This document shows positions 19,866 to 27,900 of a stretch of DNA of 44,203 bases, piece after piece. Under the pieces are notes generated by a model, which saw only the letters and a list, made by a program, of their open reading frames with translations, was not told where the DNA came from and did no database searches. Where the stretch lies: contig JABDGR010000004.1 in the NCBI GenBank assembly GCA_013285985.1, positions 1 to 44,203 on the forward strand, given 5' to 3'. The stretch is from Verrucomicrobiota bacterium. Lineage in GTDB: Bacteria > Verrucomicrobiota > Verrucomicrobiia > Opitutales > JABDGR01. The number at the start of each line of letters is the position of its first letter. The stretch's first letter is position 1. A program made the translations under genes and the position numbers.

Positions 19866-20663
19866 TTAAAACCCGTGGGTGCTGGTGAGGGCGGAGTTCG
19901 GAATTCTGCCATCGGGGGTTTTGGCCAGCCCTTTTTTGACTTCGAGAAGTTTTTTGTCGAAGTCCGTGCTGAATATCACCAGGTCGTTGTCCACGCGCAG
20001 GGCGCGGGCCTGACCGTCGCCCCGTTCATAGTCATAACCGATAAAGGAAGCATCACCGGAGTCATCGCTTAACAAAAGGGTGCGCGAGGAATCCCCATGT
20101 TTACGGGCCCAACTGCTGTTTCCACGGTTGGCGCCAAGCAGCGCCTCAATCTCCGGGTCCAGCAGGCCGGCGCCATGGCGATGGTAAATTTCCAAAGCGG
20201 ATAACTGTTTGTAGTGATATACCCGCAACTCCCAGCCGGTAATGCTGGAAGGGTCATCCAGTTTTTTCCCCACCGGCGAGCCGTCATCGGTTTTGAAATA
20301 AATGTATTCGTTAAAATCGGGCGGCTGTCTTTGCACACCATTGCTGTCGGGCGCCGGCGGGCTTTGGCCGATGGCCTGCCAGAGCAGGCTGTCAATGCTG
20401 CTGACGATGTCAAAGCCGCCTCCGCTGGTGTGCGTGGCGGGAGGAAATCCGCGGCCAAAGCCGCGACGGCCAGCTCCGTGCAAGGCGGCAGCATCGGCCG
20501 GCGACATCCGTTGCGCGGCACCATCAGCCAAAAGATGGCCCTCGAGTTGCTGCTGGGTCTCCCCCACCCGCCCGGTCAACTGCACTGACGCCGCCGCCCA
20601 AACCAGTGCAGTGAGGCCGATGAACCGTCCAGCCATCCGGGGTGTAAATCCGTTATTTTTCAT
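19866..20663 (-). CDS. Secreted hypothetical protein
   Basis: Signal-peptide-like start [29 protein letters not shown]; no family recognised. Confidence 0.6.
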
Positions 20664-20765
20664 GCGTGCAGGGAAAGAAGTTACCGGGCAATTTCCAGTT
20701 GGCAAGCCCGCTCTGAACCGGCACAAAGTTAATGCCCGGGTGATGTTCCGCTGCCGCCCCTCTCC

Positions 20766-22064
20766 ATGCCCAATCGATTTTACAACGCCGAGGATGTCGC
20801 CCTGCTCGAAGGCGAAGTGTCGGTCCGCCGCCCAAGAGATGAAGGCGATCCGCGACCACCCTTCGCCATTGACCGCGACCGCGTAATTTTCTCGTCCGTG
20901 TTCCGCCGCCTGCAATCGAAGACGCAGGTATTCCAATCCGGCGAATATGATTTTTACCGCACGCGCCTCACCCACTCTATCGAGGTCGCGCGCATCGGGC
21001 GCTCCATCGCCGAATTTCTCAATGCGACGCAGCCCGGCTTTGGATCGGAACTTTTTGTGGACCCGGATCTAGTCGAGGCGATTGGCCTGGCGCACGACAT
21101 CGGCCACCCGCCGTTCGGGCACATCGGCGAACGCCGGTTGCACGCGCTGATGACCGGCTGGGGCGGTTTTGAAGGCAACGCTCAGACCCTGCGGCTGCTG
21201 GCGGAACGTTTTTACGAACGCCCTAAACAATCGCGCGGGCTCAACCCAACGCGGGCGTTTCTCGACGGGGTGTTGAAATACAAATCGCTCCATTGCGAGG
21301 AATGCGCCGGCGGCGAAGCGCCCCGGCATCATTTTCTTTACGATGAGCAGGAGTATTTGCGCGACTTCGCCCTCGGCGGAGCCGCCAACACGCAGGCCTG
21401 CCGCGCGAAGACCGAACTCAATGACTGCAAGTCGCTCGAATGCCAGATCATGGACTGGGCGGATGACACGGCTTATTGCTTGCACGACATTCTCGACGGA
21501 GTGAAGGCGCGCTTCATCACGGTCGAAGCCATTGAACATTGGGCCGCGGGACAGGCCCTCGATGAGGTGGAACAGTCTTTACTGAAGAAATTGCTCGAAA
21601 TCATCCGGCTGGAAAATATCGAGCCGGTGTTTAACTCGAAAATCGGCCAGTTCATCCGCGCCGGTCGGCTGGCCAAACGCGAGCATCCCCTCGCCGCGCA
21701 GACCCAGCGTTACGCTTGGAGCCTGGAAATTTCCCCGGCCATCATCACCGAAGCCGAATTTTACAAGAAACTGGCCCTCGACATCATCTTCCGCTCGCCC
21801 TCCATTTTGCAAATCGAGTTCAAGGGCGGCTTCATCATTGACCGGCTGTTTGGTGCGCTGCACGAGCATTACATTGAGCCGGAAACGCCGAAGCTCGCCT
21901 TCCTGCCCGCGCGCTGGACCGCGACCCTGGCCGAGGCGAAAACGACCTCGGCCCGCGCGCGCCTGGCCTGTGATTTTCTCGCCGACCTCACCGACGGCGC
22001 GGCCATCCGGCTCTACAGACGCCTGTTTGATCCGGCCTTTGGGTCGATTACGGATTTGACCTAG
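20766..22064 (+). CDS. dgt: Deoxyguanosinetriphosphate triphosphohydrolase-like HD protein
   Basis: FRRLQSKTQVF, RLTHSIEVARIGR, GLAHDIGHPPFGHIGE, MDWADDTAYCLHDILDG. Confidence 0.94.
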   Translation: MPNRFYNAEDVALLEGEVSVRRPRDEGDPRPPFAIDRDRVIFSSVFRRLQSKTQVFQSGEYDFYRTRLTHSIEVARIGRSIAEFLNATQPGFGSELFVDPDLVEAIGLAHDIGHPPFGHIGERRLHALMTGWGGFEGNAQTLRLLAERFYERPKQSRGLNPTRAFLDGVLKYKSLHCEECAGGEAPRHHFLYDEQEYLRDFALGGAANTQACRAKTELNDCKSLECQIMDWADDTAYCLHDILDGVKARFITVEAIEHWAAGQALDEVEQSLLKKLLEIIRLENIEPVFNSKIGQFIRAGRLAKREHPLAAQTQRYAWSLEISPAIITEAEFYKKLALDIIFRSPSILQIEFKGGFIIDRLFGALHEHYIEPETPKLAFLPARWTATLAEAKTTSARARLACDFLADLTDGAAIRLYRRLFDPAFGSITDLT

Positions 22065-22148
22065 CTGGTCGTATGTTTGCGCGCCGGATGGGGTGTTGAC
22101 TCCTAACGGGGAAAAGTATTGGGTAATCACAAGCCTCCACCCCGGGTC

Positions 22149-24590
22149 GTGAAAAGAAAATTCCGCTTGTTTCGCTGGTTTCTGGTCGACGCATTATTGG
22201 CCGGCTCGGTGAATTGGGTATGGGCGGTGGCCTTGGTACCACAAAACACAGCACCGCAGCCTGCGGCGCAGCAACCCACGCCACCGCAAACCCCGCCGAA
22301 ACCCCCGGCGCAACCAGCCGTCGACTCACATTACAGTGCGGTGATCGAGGCGCGCAAACTCGCGACGTCGGTTCACGGCTATGTTGTGGTAGAGCCAGGC
22401 AAGCACCAGGCAGTCACCGCAAAGGGTTATTCGCTGGTGATTTTCGAACCGGCGTCAACGGGCGTGGGCGACCCGACGCCTTTGGCACAACTTTGGCTGA
22501 GCCTCGTGAACAGCCGCCAGGATGTCGTGGTGGCAATACCGGGTGAGCATGGTAACTATGTAAAGATGTCCATGATCACCGAGATTATTGATGACACGGT
22601 GGCGCACGACCACGTCAACCCGAAGCATATCTTCGTCGTCGGACACATTGAGGGCGTCGCCGGCGCCGCCAACATCGTGGGCTCCCGCCCGGATTTGTTT
22701 GCGGGTATTGCTTATATTTCACATCAGCTGCCGGGCAGTTTCTTCACCGCAGACATGAAGAAATACGCGGGAAAAATGTTGGTGTACCGTGCCATTGAAA
22801 CGAAGGAAATGTCCGACGCCATGTTTGCCGATGAAGCCGCGAGACTCAAAACCTTTGGTTTCACCAACATCGGCAGTGACCGGCCCGAATCCAGCCACCA
22901 AATGTCCACACCCGAATTCGAACAGGTGACCAAGAACATTATGGCGTTCTTCGACCACGCACTGTCGGCAAACTACGCGAAGGAGAAGACGGAAGCCGCC
23001 ACCATGAACTTTCTGGCAAAAAGCATGCTGACCCAGAACCGTACGTTGGCAAAACCGCCAGAAACCTATGTTTTCCTGACCCCAGACCGGCAAAAATTTC
23101 CCGTCACCACGGAATCCACGCTGCTTATTTGCCTGCATGGCAAGGGGGACACCGCTGCCAATTTCGCCAAAAGCTGGACCGACCTCGTGCAAAGCCGTAC
23201 CGACGTGGTGATCGCGGTGCCGGAAGGAACGGGAAACGCCACCGGTGACCCCTGGGGCGTGGATGCAGCCGACCTGGTCAAGGCCATCATTGATGACACC
23301 GTGGCGAACGACCACGTCAACCCGAAGCATATCATTCTGGCCGGATACGGTGACGGTTGTCAGGCGGGCGGGCGGATTATGGGTGAACATCCGGAATTAT
23401 TTGCGGGTTTCGCCGACCTGGCGGCAATTTTTCCGGATGCATTTTTCACCCCGACGGTGAAGGCGGACGCGGCCAATCTAGCAGTCTATTATGCTGTCGG
23501 AACCAAGGCATCCTATAGCCCCACTTATATTCCCAGCATGCAGCAGCTGCAGCACTTTGGTTTCAACAATTATGGCGTCCATAGTTTTCTAGACCCGGTC
23601 AACCTCCTGGTGGAAAAGTACAACTATGCCGACGATGCCACCCCGGATGGATTCAAGTATCTCGTCACGCGCCTGATGCGTTTCTTTGACAACGCGCTGG
23701 CCGAGAATGACAAAAAAAACGCACTGGCGGTAACGGCCGCCGCTCCCAAGACCCAACTCCTGGATCTACCCAATGACGACCTGCCCAATAATGCGGTGGT
23801 GACGGCGGAGAAACGCACCTTGGACGGATTTTTTGGCCTGCCTTATGAATGGCATAGTGTTTCCACGTCGAAAGGGAATGACTGGATAAACATCTCGACG
23901 CCGGATCGGCAAAAGGAGAGAGCCTCCTATGTCGTGGTCAAAAACCGTTCCACCCTGGTCAAGGATTTTGATTTGCTGATTTTTGCCCATTGGGGTGTCG
24001 CGGCCGATGACGCCAAGACCTTGTCCGCCCTGGTTGCCAACCGCCCCAATTTAATTGTGGTGCTGCCCGACGACGGGGTCGTCGTTAAGAGGAATAAAGG
24101 GGTCGAAACCGATGTCAGACCCCCGAATTATGCTGCGATTCCAGCCATTATCAACGACTTGGTCGCGCATGAAGGAGTCAATCCCCGGCATGTCATGCTG
24201 GCTGGCGTTTCGGGCGCCGGGGAAGAAGCCCGTGAATTGCTTCTTCGCTCTCCCGAGTTATACGCGGACTTCGGCCTGATGGATTGCGATTTCCAGGCGC
24301 CCCCGCCAGACGGTGTGTTCACACCCAAGTTGAAAGAATATACGAACAAGATTGCCGTTTACTATGCCGTGGATACTGACGCCGGCCCGCGTGGCAACAT
24401 GTTTCGGGAAGGGTTTACCCCCTCGCTCAAACATTTGACCGATTTCGGTTTTTCCGTCCATGCCGAGCAACCCGCCAGTGGCCATACCTACACCCTCCCG
24501 GAAGTTGACAGCATGATGAACTACTTCGACGGCGCGTTGAAAAAGAACGATCAAGCGGAAAGGAAAGCGGCGCAACTCGTCAAACAATAG
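22149..24590 (+). CDS. Secreted protein with three tandem alpha/beta-hydrolase (LpqC/PHB-depolymerase-like) domains
   Basis: Signal peptide MKRKFRLFRWFLVDALLAGSVNWVWA from GTG; three repeats of a LVIF/LLICLHG...VVVAIP...IIDDTVA-DHVNPKHI...GFxN...MxFFDxAL pattern. Confidence 0.85.
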   Translation: MKRKFRLFRWFLVDALLAGSVNWVWAVALVPQNTAPQPAAQQPTPPQTPPKPPAQPAVDSHYSAVIEARKLATSVHGYVVVEPGKHQAVTAKGYSLVIFEPASTGVGDPTPLAQLWLSLVNSRQDVVVAIPGEHGNYVKMSMITEIIDDTVAHDHVNPKHIFVVGHIEGVAGAANIVGSRPDLFAGIAYISHQLPGSFFTADMKKYAGKMLVYRAIETKEMSDAMFADEAARLKTFGFTNIGSDRPESSHQMSTPEFEQVTKNIMAFFDHALSANYAKEKTEAATMNFLAKSMLTQNRTLAKPPETYVFLTPDRQKFPVTTESTLLICLHGKGDTAANFAKSWTDLVQSRTDVVIAVPEGTGNATGDPWGVDAADLVKAIIDDTVANDHVNPKHIILAGYGDGCQAGGRIMGEHPELFAGFADLAAIFPDAFFTPTVKADAANLAVYYAVGTKASYSPTYIPSMQQLQHFGFNNYGVHSFLDPVNLLVEKYNYADDATPDGFKYLVTRLMRFFDNALAENDKKNALAVTAAAPKTQLLDLPNDDLPNNAVVTAEKRTLDGFFGLPYEWHSVSTSKGNDWINISTPDRQKERASYVVVKNRSTLVKDFDLLIFAHWGVAADDAKTLSALVANRPNLIVVLPDDGVVVKRNKGVETDVRPPNYAAIPAIINDLVAHEGVNPRHVMLAGVSGAGEEARELLLRSPELYADFGLMDCDFQAPPPDGVFTPKLKEYTNKIAVYYAVDTDAGPRGNMFREGFTPSLKHLTDFGFSVHAEQPASGHTYTLPEVDSMMNYFDGALKKNDQAERKAAQLVKQ

Positions 24591-24645
24591 CCGACTCAAC
24601 ACTCTTGGGCATGCTTGGCGGCGAGATTTCTCGAGACGGCAAAGT

Positions 24646-25092
24646 CTAAGCCCCAAACAGGGAAAAAAGCGCCCCGCCCGCCAGCAAAGTCCAAATGGCC
24701 CATTCATACGGCGTCGGCCGAAGTTTAAGAAAGCAATAGGCGGCGGCCTGGCAAAAAATCAAATCGAGCAACAAAACCGCGAACACGCCTTCCACGCCGC
24801 GCAAAAGTCCCGCGAGGTCGGACGTTTGCAGCAAACTCGCCGCAATATAAAACACCACGACGAACAAAATACTGCTGAATTCGAGGTATTCAATTTGTTT
24901 GTTTTGGCGGACGATATTCGTCCACCCGGCCGCCTGGGCGGCCAAACGCAAAATTCTTGGACGCTGCAGCAACAGCCAAAGCGGAATGAAAACCGCCAGA
25001 CAATCCCAGGGCGCATAGTGATTGCCTAGATAATGCTTGCGTATGGACATGACAAAAACGAGCGAAAGCAAAAATGCCGGGAGCGCCCACAC
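24646..25092 (-). CDS. Multi-pass membrane protein, hypothetical
   Basis: 148 aa with several hydrophobic segments. Confidence 0.55.
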   Translation of the reverse strand: MWALPAFLLSLVFVMSIRKHYLGNHYAPWDCLAVFIPLWLLLQRPRILRLAAQAAGWTNIVRQNKQIEYLEFSSILFVVVFYIAASLLQTSDLAGLLRGVEGVFAVLLLDLIFCQAAAYCFLKLRPTPYEWAIWTLLAGGALFSLFGA

Positions 25093-25198
25093 CAGGCCTA
25101 AAAAAACAAGGAAAAGGCCAGCTCGCCAGTGTTCGATGGATCAAAAATATCCCGCTGATTGAGGGTTTTGGGCATTTTCAGAACGTGGAGAGCACCGG

Positions 25199-25288
25199 CT
25201 ATGCCCGCGGATGCGCCTTGCGGTGGGCTTCCTGAAGGCGGGCGATGCTGACGTGGGTGTAGATTTGGGTTGTCGAAAGACGGGCGTG
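25199..25288 (-). pseudogene. xerC 3'-end remnant (about 30 codons incl. stop)
   Basis: Encodes [29 protein letters not shown]-stop, the same residues as the C-terminus of XerC at 26935-27900. Confidence 0.9.
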
Positions 25289-25346
25289 ATGCAGCGTTGA
25301 CTTTTAACGATTAAAGTATTGGATAATTGCGAAGCCTGCTCCGACG

Positions 25347-26921
25347 GTGAAAAGAAACTTTCATTTGTTTCGATGGTTGCTGGCCGGAGTTTTGCTCGGC
25401 AGTCTGGCAGGACAGGCATGGGCGGTCGCCCTAGCACCACAAAACTCGCCGCTGCAACCCACTGAGCCGAATTACGACGTGGTGGTAGAGAATTGCAAAC
25501 TCAGAAAAAACGCTGACTCAACGCGAGATTCCACCTATGTTTTCCTGGCCCCGGGTCGACATGGATACATTCCCGCAAAAGGCTACACCTTGGTGATTTG
25601 CCTGCATGGCACGGGCGACACCGCGGATAATTTCGCAAAGTTTTGGATGGCCCTGGTGAACAGTCGTCCAGATGTGGTAGTCGCGGCGGTGGAAGTCAGC
25701 GGCGTCATCGGGGGAGGATACACCTCTCGCGCCGATTTAATCTCCGCTGTCATTGATGATGCCGTCGCGAACAAGCATGTGAACCCCCGACACGTCATCC
25801 TTGCGGGATACTCCGGCGGCGCTTCCGACGCCAGCGTGGCAGCGCGTGAGCGTCCGGAATTACTGGCGGGGTTCGCTTACTTTTCACAGGGATTTTTATC
25901 CGATGAAATCACCGGAAGCTGGAAAGAAAATGCAGGCAAAATGGCGGTATATTTTAGCGCCGGGACTGAAGAGATGAATGACAAGCTGTTTGCCTTTGAA
26001 GCTGCGCGACTCAAAAACATCGGCTTCGCAAACCTTTTTACTGATCACCGCGAAGGCGGCCATCAAATGTCGATTGACCAATTCGGACAAATGACGATGC
26101 GCATGATGGAATTCTTTGCGCAGGCGTTTTCCGAAAACGATCAAAAGGAAAAAAGGACGGCAATGATGACACAAAACCCTGCACCAGCGCCCGTGGACGA
26201 ATCCGACAGGAAGGTCGTGGCCGAAAAGCGCACTGTGCAAAAAAAGGGTTTGGGTTCTTATATTTTCCTGAGCCAAGACCGAAGCAGATTTCACACCACC
26301 CAGCCATCCACACTGCTGATCTGCCTGCCGGGCCAAGGAGATTCGGCGACTGATTTTGCAAAAAATTGGATAGCGTTGGTAAATAGCCGCGCGGACGTGT
26401 TGGTCGCAGTGCCGGAGAAAGTAACCCCCAACCCCATTCAAATGGTTGCACACTACCAAAATATCGCTCAACTCGTGGCCGCAATTATTGAGGATACAGT
26501 GGTGCGTGACAATGTTGACCCAAAACATGTCATCCTGATGGGATACTCGGAAGGAGCTTGGGACGCTGGCCTCGTGCTTACGGCACATCCGGACCTTTTT
26601 GCGGGCTTTGCCGGCATTGCAACCTGTTTTCCATCCGTGGATGGCAAATCCCCTTCAAGGTTTTTCAATCCTACCGTAAAAAAAGCCGCGGAGAGGCTGG
26701 CGGTCTACTATGCCGTGGGGGCCCGGGATGAAATATTTAAGGGTTATTACTCTGACAGTGTGGCCGGGTTGAAAAATTACCGGTTTGCCAACTTCACGAG
26801 TGAAAAGCCCGATTGTGGCCACAATCTAACGCAGCTCGAAATCGCGCATATGATGACGTTTTTCGACAAGGCGCTGGCTACGAATGACCAGAAGGAACAG
26901 AAAGCGACGGCGGGCGAATAA
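25347..26921 (+). CDS. Secreted protein with two tandem alpha/beta-hydrolase domains; paralog of 22149-24590
   Basis: MKRNFHLFRWLLAGVLLGSLAGQAWAVALAPQNS start from GTG; two intact GYSxG motifs; same repeat pattern as the upstream paralog. Confidence 0.85.
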   Translation: MKRNFHLFRWLLAGVLLGSLAGQAWAVALAPQNSPLQPTEPNYDVVVENCKLRKNADSTRDSTYVFLAPGRHGYIPAKGYTLVICLHGTGDTADNFAKFWMALVNSRPDVVVAAVEVSGVIGGGYTSRADLISAVIDDAVANKHVNPRHVILAGYSGGASDASVAARERPELLAGFAYFSQGFLSDEITGSWKENAGKMAVYFSAGTEEMNDKLFAFEAARLKNIGFANLFTDHREGGHQMSIDQFGQMTMRMMEFFAQAFSENDQKEKRTAMMTQNPAPAPVDESDRKVVAEKRTVQKKGLGSYIFLSQDRSRFHTTQPSTLLICLPGQGDSATDFAKNWIALVNSRADVLVAVPEKVTPNPIQMVAHYQNIAQLVAAIIEDTVVRDNVDPKHVILMGYSEGAWDAGLVLTAHPDLFAGFAGIATCFPSVDGKSPSRFFNPTVKKAAERLAVYYAVGARDEIFKGYYSDSVAGLKNYRFANFTSEKPDCGHNLTQLEIAHMMTFFDKALATNDQKEQKATAGE

Positions 26922-26934
26922 ATAATCGCCTGGT

Positions 26935-27900
26935 TCACGCCCTTGGATGGGCCTTGCGGTGGGCTTCCTGGAGGCGGGCGATGCTGACGTGGGTGTAAAT
27001 CTGCGTCGTGGAAAGGCGGGCGTGGCCAAGCATTTCCTGGACAGCGCGCAGGTCAGCCCCATGGTTGAGCAGGTGCGTGGCGAAGGAATGGCGCAGCTTG
27101 TGCGGCGACAAATCGAGCGGCAGGCCGGCGAGTTTTAAAAAGGTCTTGAGCCTTAACTGCAACCAGCGCGCGGACACGGGCTTCCCATTGACCTGCGTGA
27201 TGACCGGCGCGGAGAATTCGACATTGGCCGAAAAATTGTCGCGATGCTTGCGCAAGGCTTCGACGGCGCTTTCGCCCAACGGGCAGAGCCGCTCCTTGTC
27301 CCCCTTGCCGCGCACGCGCGCGCTGCCTTCCTCCAAATCCAGCTGGCCCCACGTCAGCGTCGCGAGTTCACTCACCCGCAGACCCGCGCCGTAGAGAATC
27401 TCCAACATGATGCCGTCGCGGCTGCGGGCAAAGGCGCGGGCCTTGGCATCACTCCCCTCGCCCATTTCGTTTTCCGCGAGCTGCGCGGGCACGGCGAGGA
27501 GCGTGCGCATCTGCTCCTCGGTGAGGAATAGCGGCAGCTTTTTCGCCAACTTGGGCAGGGACAGACCCAGCCATGGACTCATCTTGGTATGTCCACGTCG
27601 CTGTAAAAACTTCCAGAAGGCCCGCAAGGCCGAGACATGCAGGTGCACCGTCCGTCGGTCGAGCAGCCGCTGGCTTTCGATGACAAAACTGCGGGCTTGC
27701 AAACGCGAGACCTGGGCGGGGTCGATAGCCTTGCCCTCGCCCTGCCGCAGCCAGGCGAAAAACCCGCGCACGGCGTGCTCGTAGTTGCGCGAGGTGTTTT
27801 TCGAGAGCCGGCGCTCGCCCCGCAATTCCTCCAAAAACGCCTCCAGGTGCGGCACGCGCTCGGGCGTTTTTACCGGGGGTGCGGGCGGGTCACCGGGCAT
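26935..27900 (-). CDS. xerC: Tyrosine recombinase XerC/XerD
   Basis: [61 protein letters not shown] (R, H-x-x-R, Y catalytic residues). Confidence 0.93.
   Translation of the reverse strand: MPGDPPAPPVKTPERVPHLEAFLEELRGERRLSKNTSRNYEHAVRGFFAWLRQGEGKAIDPAQVSRLQARSFVIESQRLLDRRTVHLHVSALRAFWKFLQRRGHTKMSPWLGLSLPKLAKKLPLFLTEEQMRTLLAVPAQLAENEMGEGSDAKARAFARSRDGIMLEILYGAGLRVSELATLTWGQLDLEEGSARVRGKGDKERLCPLGESAVEALRKHRDNFSANVEFSAPVITQVNGKPVSARWLQLRLKTFLKLAGLPLDLSPHKLRHSFATHLLNHGADLRAVQEMLGHARLSTTQIYTHVSIARLQEAHRKAHPRA

Follow-up and report, generated by a model that had tools for sequence, protein, structure and literature searches.

Paralogous proteins of three and two alpha/beta-hydrolase-like modules, two of them without a nucleophile, encoded by neighbouring genes of a Verrucomicrobiota bacterium

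Two neighbouring genes of a Verrucomicrobiota bacterium encode proteins, here called P1 and P2, that contain three and two homologous alpha/beta-hydrolase-like modules respectively, 30–47% identical to one another in a five-module alignment. By sequence, three of the five modules are candidate enzymes and two are not. The two proteins are probably paralogous secreted serine esterases that arose by module duplication, with the dead modules of P1 acting in binding or spacing. Because just three of the five copies retain catalytic residues, we regard them as an unusual arrangement, restricted to one lineage, of a familiar enzyme fold and not as a new system. The window, that is the whole stretch of DNA that was analysed, is 44,203 nucleotides long, and the two genes and their parts lie in it as follows.

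22149–24590, + strand: P1, three-module alpha/beta-hydrolase-like protein, predicted to be secreted; 813 aa, GTG start
22149–22226, + strand: putative signal peptide of P1, VKRKFRLFRWFLVDALLAGSVNWVWA, read from the sequence; similar leader in P2
22326–23021, + strand: module 1, elbow GHIEG, Ile167 replacing Ser; Glu220 and His250 retained; predicted non-catalytic
23031–23762, + strand: module 2, elbow GYGDG, Gly401 replacing Ser; acid and His also missing; predicted non-catalytic
23781–24587, + strand: module 3, GVSGAG, Ser688, His779, candidate acid Asp742/Asp744; possibly catalytic
25347–26921, + strand: P2, two-module alpha/beta-hydrolase-like protein, predicted to be secreted; 524 aa, GTG start
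25347–25424, + strand: putative signal peptide of P2, VKRNFHLFRWLLAGVLLGSLAGQAWA, read from the sequence; similar leader in P1
25467–26177, + strand: module 4, GYSGG, Ser156 at a strand-helix turn, Glu209, His239; predicted catalytic
26193–26918, + strand: module 5, GYSEG, Ser401 at a strand-helix turn, Asp461, His492; predicted catalytic

P1 and P2 aligned in register by BLASTP with 351 bits (E=2e-116), and off-register pairs of modules scored 79–231 bits, far above chance. A five-row profile of the modules matched the genome exactly five times (E 1e-108 to 2e-87), with no further match at E 1e-10 or better. Alignment, BLASTP and profile search thus bear out an earlier sequence-only reading, in which the tandem paralogues were said to contain five repeats, three in one protein and two in the other. 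The consensus quoted in that reading (LVICLHGxGDTAxNFAK / VNPKHVILAGYS.G) describes modules 2, 4 and 5 well and module 1 in part, but module 3 poorly. The common signal peptide that it reported was also recovered, as a similar leader in both proteins with the pattern VKRxFxLFRWxL...WAVALxPQN (sequence reading and BLASTP). This leader resembles a Sec signal peptide, by which P1 and P2 would be exported, and in P1 it is followed by a proline-rich linker. The two genes also resemble each other over a short upstream stretch (22095–22130 and 25296–25331, GTTGACTnnTAACG...AAAGTATTGGnTAAT), one inserted base apart. Its pattern, with up to three mismatches, occurred at no further place in the genome, and the stretch was rejected as a promoter element of a genome-wide regulon.

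An AlphaFold2 model of P2, made from a three-row alignment and of moderate confidence (pLDDT 69, pTM 0.47), contained two complete alpha/beta-hydrolase folds. In the model Ser156 lies between strand 145–155 and helix 157–168, and Ser401 between strand 390–400 and helix 402–413; such a strand-helix junction is the expected place of a nucleophile elbow. Foldseek matched the model to S. pneumoniae EstA, Bacteroides feruloyl esterases and a thermophilic PHB depolymerase in the PDB (E 2e-9). The model of P1 was poor (pLDDT 54), with the order of strands and helices appearing three times at low confidence, and feruloyl esterases were again among its Foldseek matches. The number of folds in P1 therefore rests on module homology together with the matching order of strands and helices. 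The resemblance to CE1 feruloyl and acetyl xylan esterases is structural only, at 12–17% identity.

The best curated-family match of both proteins was the NCBIfam model NF050058 (e_dPHAscl_type1), with whole-protein scores of 69.6 and 62.8 bits, below the curated cut-off of 150; it matched at three places along P1 and at two along P2. The PHB esterase subfamily model TIGR01840 scored 40.2 and 43 bits, below its curated cut-off of 107.85. PF10503 (Esterase_PHB), the Pfam family named in the earlier reading, reached 20.5 bits in P2, below its gathering score of 23, and was not listed for P1. The models above gathering score in P2 were Abhydrolase_6 (37.2 bits, gathering score 26.3), Abhydrolase_2 (26.6, 23) and Peptidase_S9 (23.0, 22.6); none was above it in P1, and module 3 alone matched no Pfam model. 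Sequence matches in the PDB were weak, LC-Est1C being found by the module profile at E=0.0005. Sequence and fold together uphold the proposed kinship with the LpqC, PHB-depolymerase and feruloyl-esterase group, though below the curated PHB-depolymerase cut-offs.

The triad columns were fixed in an alignment of the modules with single-domain relatives, one of which is a secreted homologue encoded by the genome itself. This homologue is a single-module protein of 280 aa with the motif GMSNG (L064 2945–3787, contig C24 of the source genome G000), and it is the genome's best match to NF050058, at 99 bits. The Ser-His-acid triad is not present in every module. It is complete in modules 4 and 5, and module 3 has Ser, His and a candidate acid that is one residue off in the alignment. 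Modules 1 and 2 have no nucleophile in the triad column, which leaves the earlier view of five hydrolases unsupported, and the GYS.G motif is not general, its Ser being missing from the same two modules. P1 thus looks like two non-catalytic modules joined to one catalytic module, and P2 like two catalytic ones. The substrate may be an extracytoplasmic polymeric ester, either a polyhydroxyalkanoate or an acylated or feruloylated polysaccharide, and no neighbouring gene in the window fixes it. A link to PHA storage by the bacterium itself was set aside: no PHA synthase (PhaC_N match) was found in the genome, which is only 50% complete.

The closest pairs of modules are 1 with 4 (43% identity) and 2 with 5 (47%), and since they pair in this way a two-module ancestor probably preceded the split between P1 and P2. 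Module 3, the most divergent, is 30–33% identical to all the others and carries an extra N-terminal stretch. In the explanation that we favour, a single alpha/beta-hydrolase module would have been duplicated to give the two-module ancestor before the genes separated, with P1 carrying an additional divergent third module. Both modules of P2 would cleave acyl esters by means of a Ser-His-Asp/Glu triad. Modules 1 and 2 of P1, having lost the nucleophile, would serve only for binding or as spacers ahead of a third module that is possibly active. Within P1, modules 1 and 2 are 79% identical in nucleotide sequence over 82 nt (22573–22654 and 23275–23356) just before the lost nucleophile, compared with 61–65% between module 1 and the P2 modules over the same stretch. 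A plausible cause is local gene conversion between these two dead modules.

We consider it unlikely that P1 and P2 are no longer enzymes at all, and are instead binding proteins of the surface or envelope, in which the fold has been reused and the remaining Ser-His pairs are relics. The nucleophile is clearly absent from two modules, and all of the modules are far from relatives elsewhere (about 20–42 bits to the profile), as such proteins might be. However, Ser, His and acid have been jointly retained in modules 4 and 5 despite divergence of these modules to 38% identity.

It is improbable that P1 is a functionless, decaying copy in which loss of active sites is mere degeneration after duplication. 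The losses are indeed confined to P1, and its third module is the most divergent of all, but its 813 codons are free of stops. All modules, the dead ones included, show codon-position G+C of the kind seen in coding sequence, and dN/dS between paired modules is approximately 0.2–0.3, a rough value with dS near saturation. Coding-like G+C and low dN/dS indicate that P1 is a maintained gene, and argue against pseudogene decay. Third-position G+C is 0.58–0.66 in P1 and P2 compared with 0.70–0.81 for most neighbours, and total G+C is 50–57% across 22500–27000 compared with about 59–64% on either side.

Five active sites, with modules 1 and 2 using another nucleophile or a different mechanism, are very improbable: module 1 retains His250 and Glu220 in position, and one published account describes relocated catalytic residues in some pseudoenzyme-like proteins (PMC10211241), but Ile and Gly stand exactly at the nucleophile position and module 2 is without all three triad residues.

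P2 lies between two copies of the 3′ end of xerC, and the following features surround it.

24646–25092, − strand: hydrophobic ORF of 148 aa in the interval between P1 and the xerC fragment; possibly not a gene
25199–25288, − strand: duplicate of the 3′ end of xerC, comprising its final 29 codons and the stop, just upstream of P2
26935–27900, − strand: xerC, intact tyrosine recombinase gene, convergent with P2; the gene whose 3′ end was duplicated

The two xerC ends (25199–25288 and 26935–27024) are identical at 29 of 29 residues and differ by 11 synonymous substitutions, and the fragment ends in TAG where the intact gene has TGA. None of 300,000 simulations of 11 random substitutions preserved the protein, and the result was the same with 13. 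The exclusively synonymous differences indicate that both ends diverged while translated. Duplication of a xerC fragment within the genome followed by neutral decay was therefore rejected, as none of the 11 substitutions changes an amino acid. The simpler reading of this scar is an old duplication of a unit consisting of a P gene and xerC, one xerC later being largely deleted, and we prefer it because it explains the ancient split between P1 and P2 as well. The scar also fits acquisition of P2 together with the xerC 3′ end of a relative. A strain chimera in the assembly is unlikely, because the joint has no shared sequence.

As in an integrative element, P2 is flanked by direct repeats, 86–90 bp of the xerC 3′ end, and deletion within a second xerC would give the same picture. 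No integrase was found between the repeats, and P2 is alone within 25289–26938. It seems distinctly doubtful that the xerC 3′ end is an accretion site, repeatedly gaining single-gene units from related bacteria, with the multi-module proteins as diversifying cargo. Each unit would then comprise a promoter and a fast-diverging gene for a secreted multi-hydrolase, and each arrival would rebuild the xerC end and displace the previous unit, the dead modules being used for binding. At the xerC loci of 29 relatives, no dgt gene, relative of P1 or P2 or repeated xerC end was found within 1.5 kb, and a conserved dgt-xerC neighbourhood was accordingly rejected over that distance.

The 148-aa ORF had no Pfam match and no relative among 52 genomes. 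Other neighbours are an HD-domain (dGTPase-like) gene, a sugar ABC transporter, an arabinofuranosidase, GH3 and GH77, all with housekeeping or sugar-use functions, and the sugar-use genes are several kb from P1 and P2. A 369-aa ORF (19866–20975, − strand) with no Pfam match adjoins the HD-domain gene and overlaps its listed start.

Profile searches detected no close relative of the modules above about 42 bits in 384 genomes of the class, nor above about 42 bits among the strong matches listed for 273 genomes of the order and 388 of the phylum. Close relatives of P1 and P2 were likewise absent from the genomes of 52 relatives, from GTDB r220 contigs and viral contigs (pattern search), and from plasmids and phages (tblastn). 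The arrangement of modules is thus lineage-restricted within the genomes searched, among which the source genome is the sole member of its family. The kinship seen would suit a verrucomicrobial order such as Opitutales. Roles in defence or in phage biology were set aside, there being no useful match in PADLOC or PHROGs respectively.

The sequence-only reading took concatenated domains of this kind to be a non-standard architecture. Tandem chains of CE1 domains have in fact been published (PMC8040265, PMC12055684) and a tandem protein is present in another genome of the same phylum, G730, but the three-module variant does differ from these. In Dysgonomonas mossii the secreted protein DmCE1B carries a pair of CE1 domains, 35% identical and both with intact triads, on either side of a CBM48, and its C-terminal CE1 domain is nearly inactive on the substrates tested (PMC8040265). 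A Teredinibacter protein combines GH11 with two CE1 domains in one chain (PMC12055684). Like DmCE1B, P1 and P2 hold several esterase modules of one family in a single, apparently secreted chain; unlike it, they have no recognised CBM and up to three modules, and the nucleophile is missing from two. With the extracellular type 1 scl PHA depolymerases of NF050058 (LpqC/PF10503 group) they share the features of a secreted alpha/beta-hydrolase with Ser in GxSxG. They differ in their scores (63–70 against the cut-off of 150), in the repetition of modules two to three times, two of these being without Ser, and in having no recognised separate substrate-binding domain. The G730 protein (L065 1277–5158, 1293 aa), found in the NF050058 survey, has two dPHAscl-type modules, both intact and retaining GxSNG and GHxWPG; behind them comes a long C-terminal region with the appearance of FG-GAP repeats. 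It resembles P1 and P2 in its tandem modules but is not closely related to them. P1 and P2 stand apart from these known cases in that one chain holds three modules and has no recognised binding domain, in that two modules have lost the nucleophile, and in their restriction to one lineage. In an otherwise ordinary fold from a little-sampled lineage, P1 and P2 offer a compact natural case of an apparently exported, repeated esterase fold with some copies lacking the nucleophile, and could show whether dead copies turn into binding modules.
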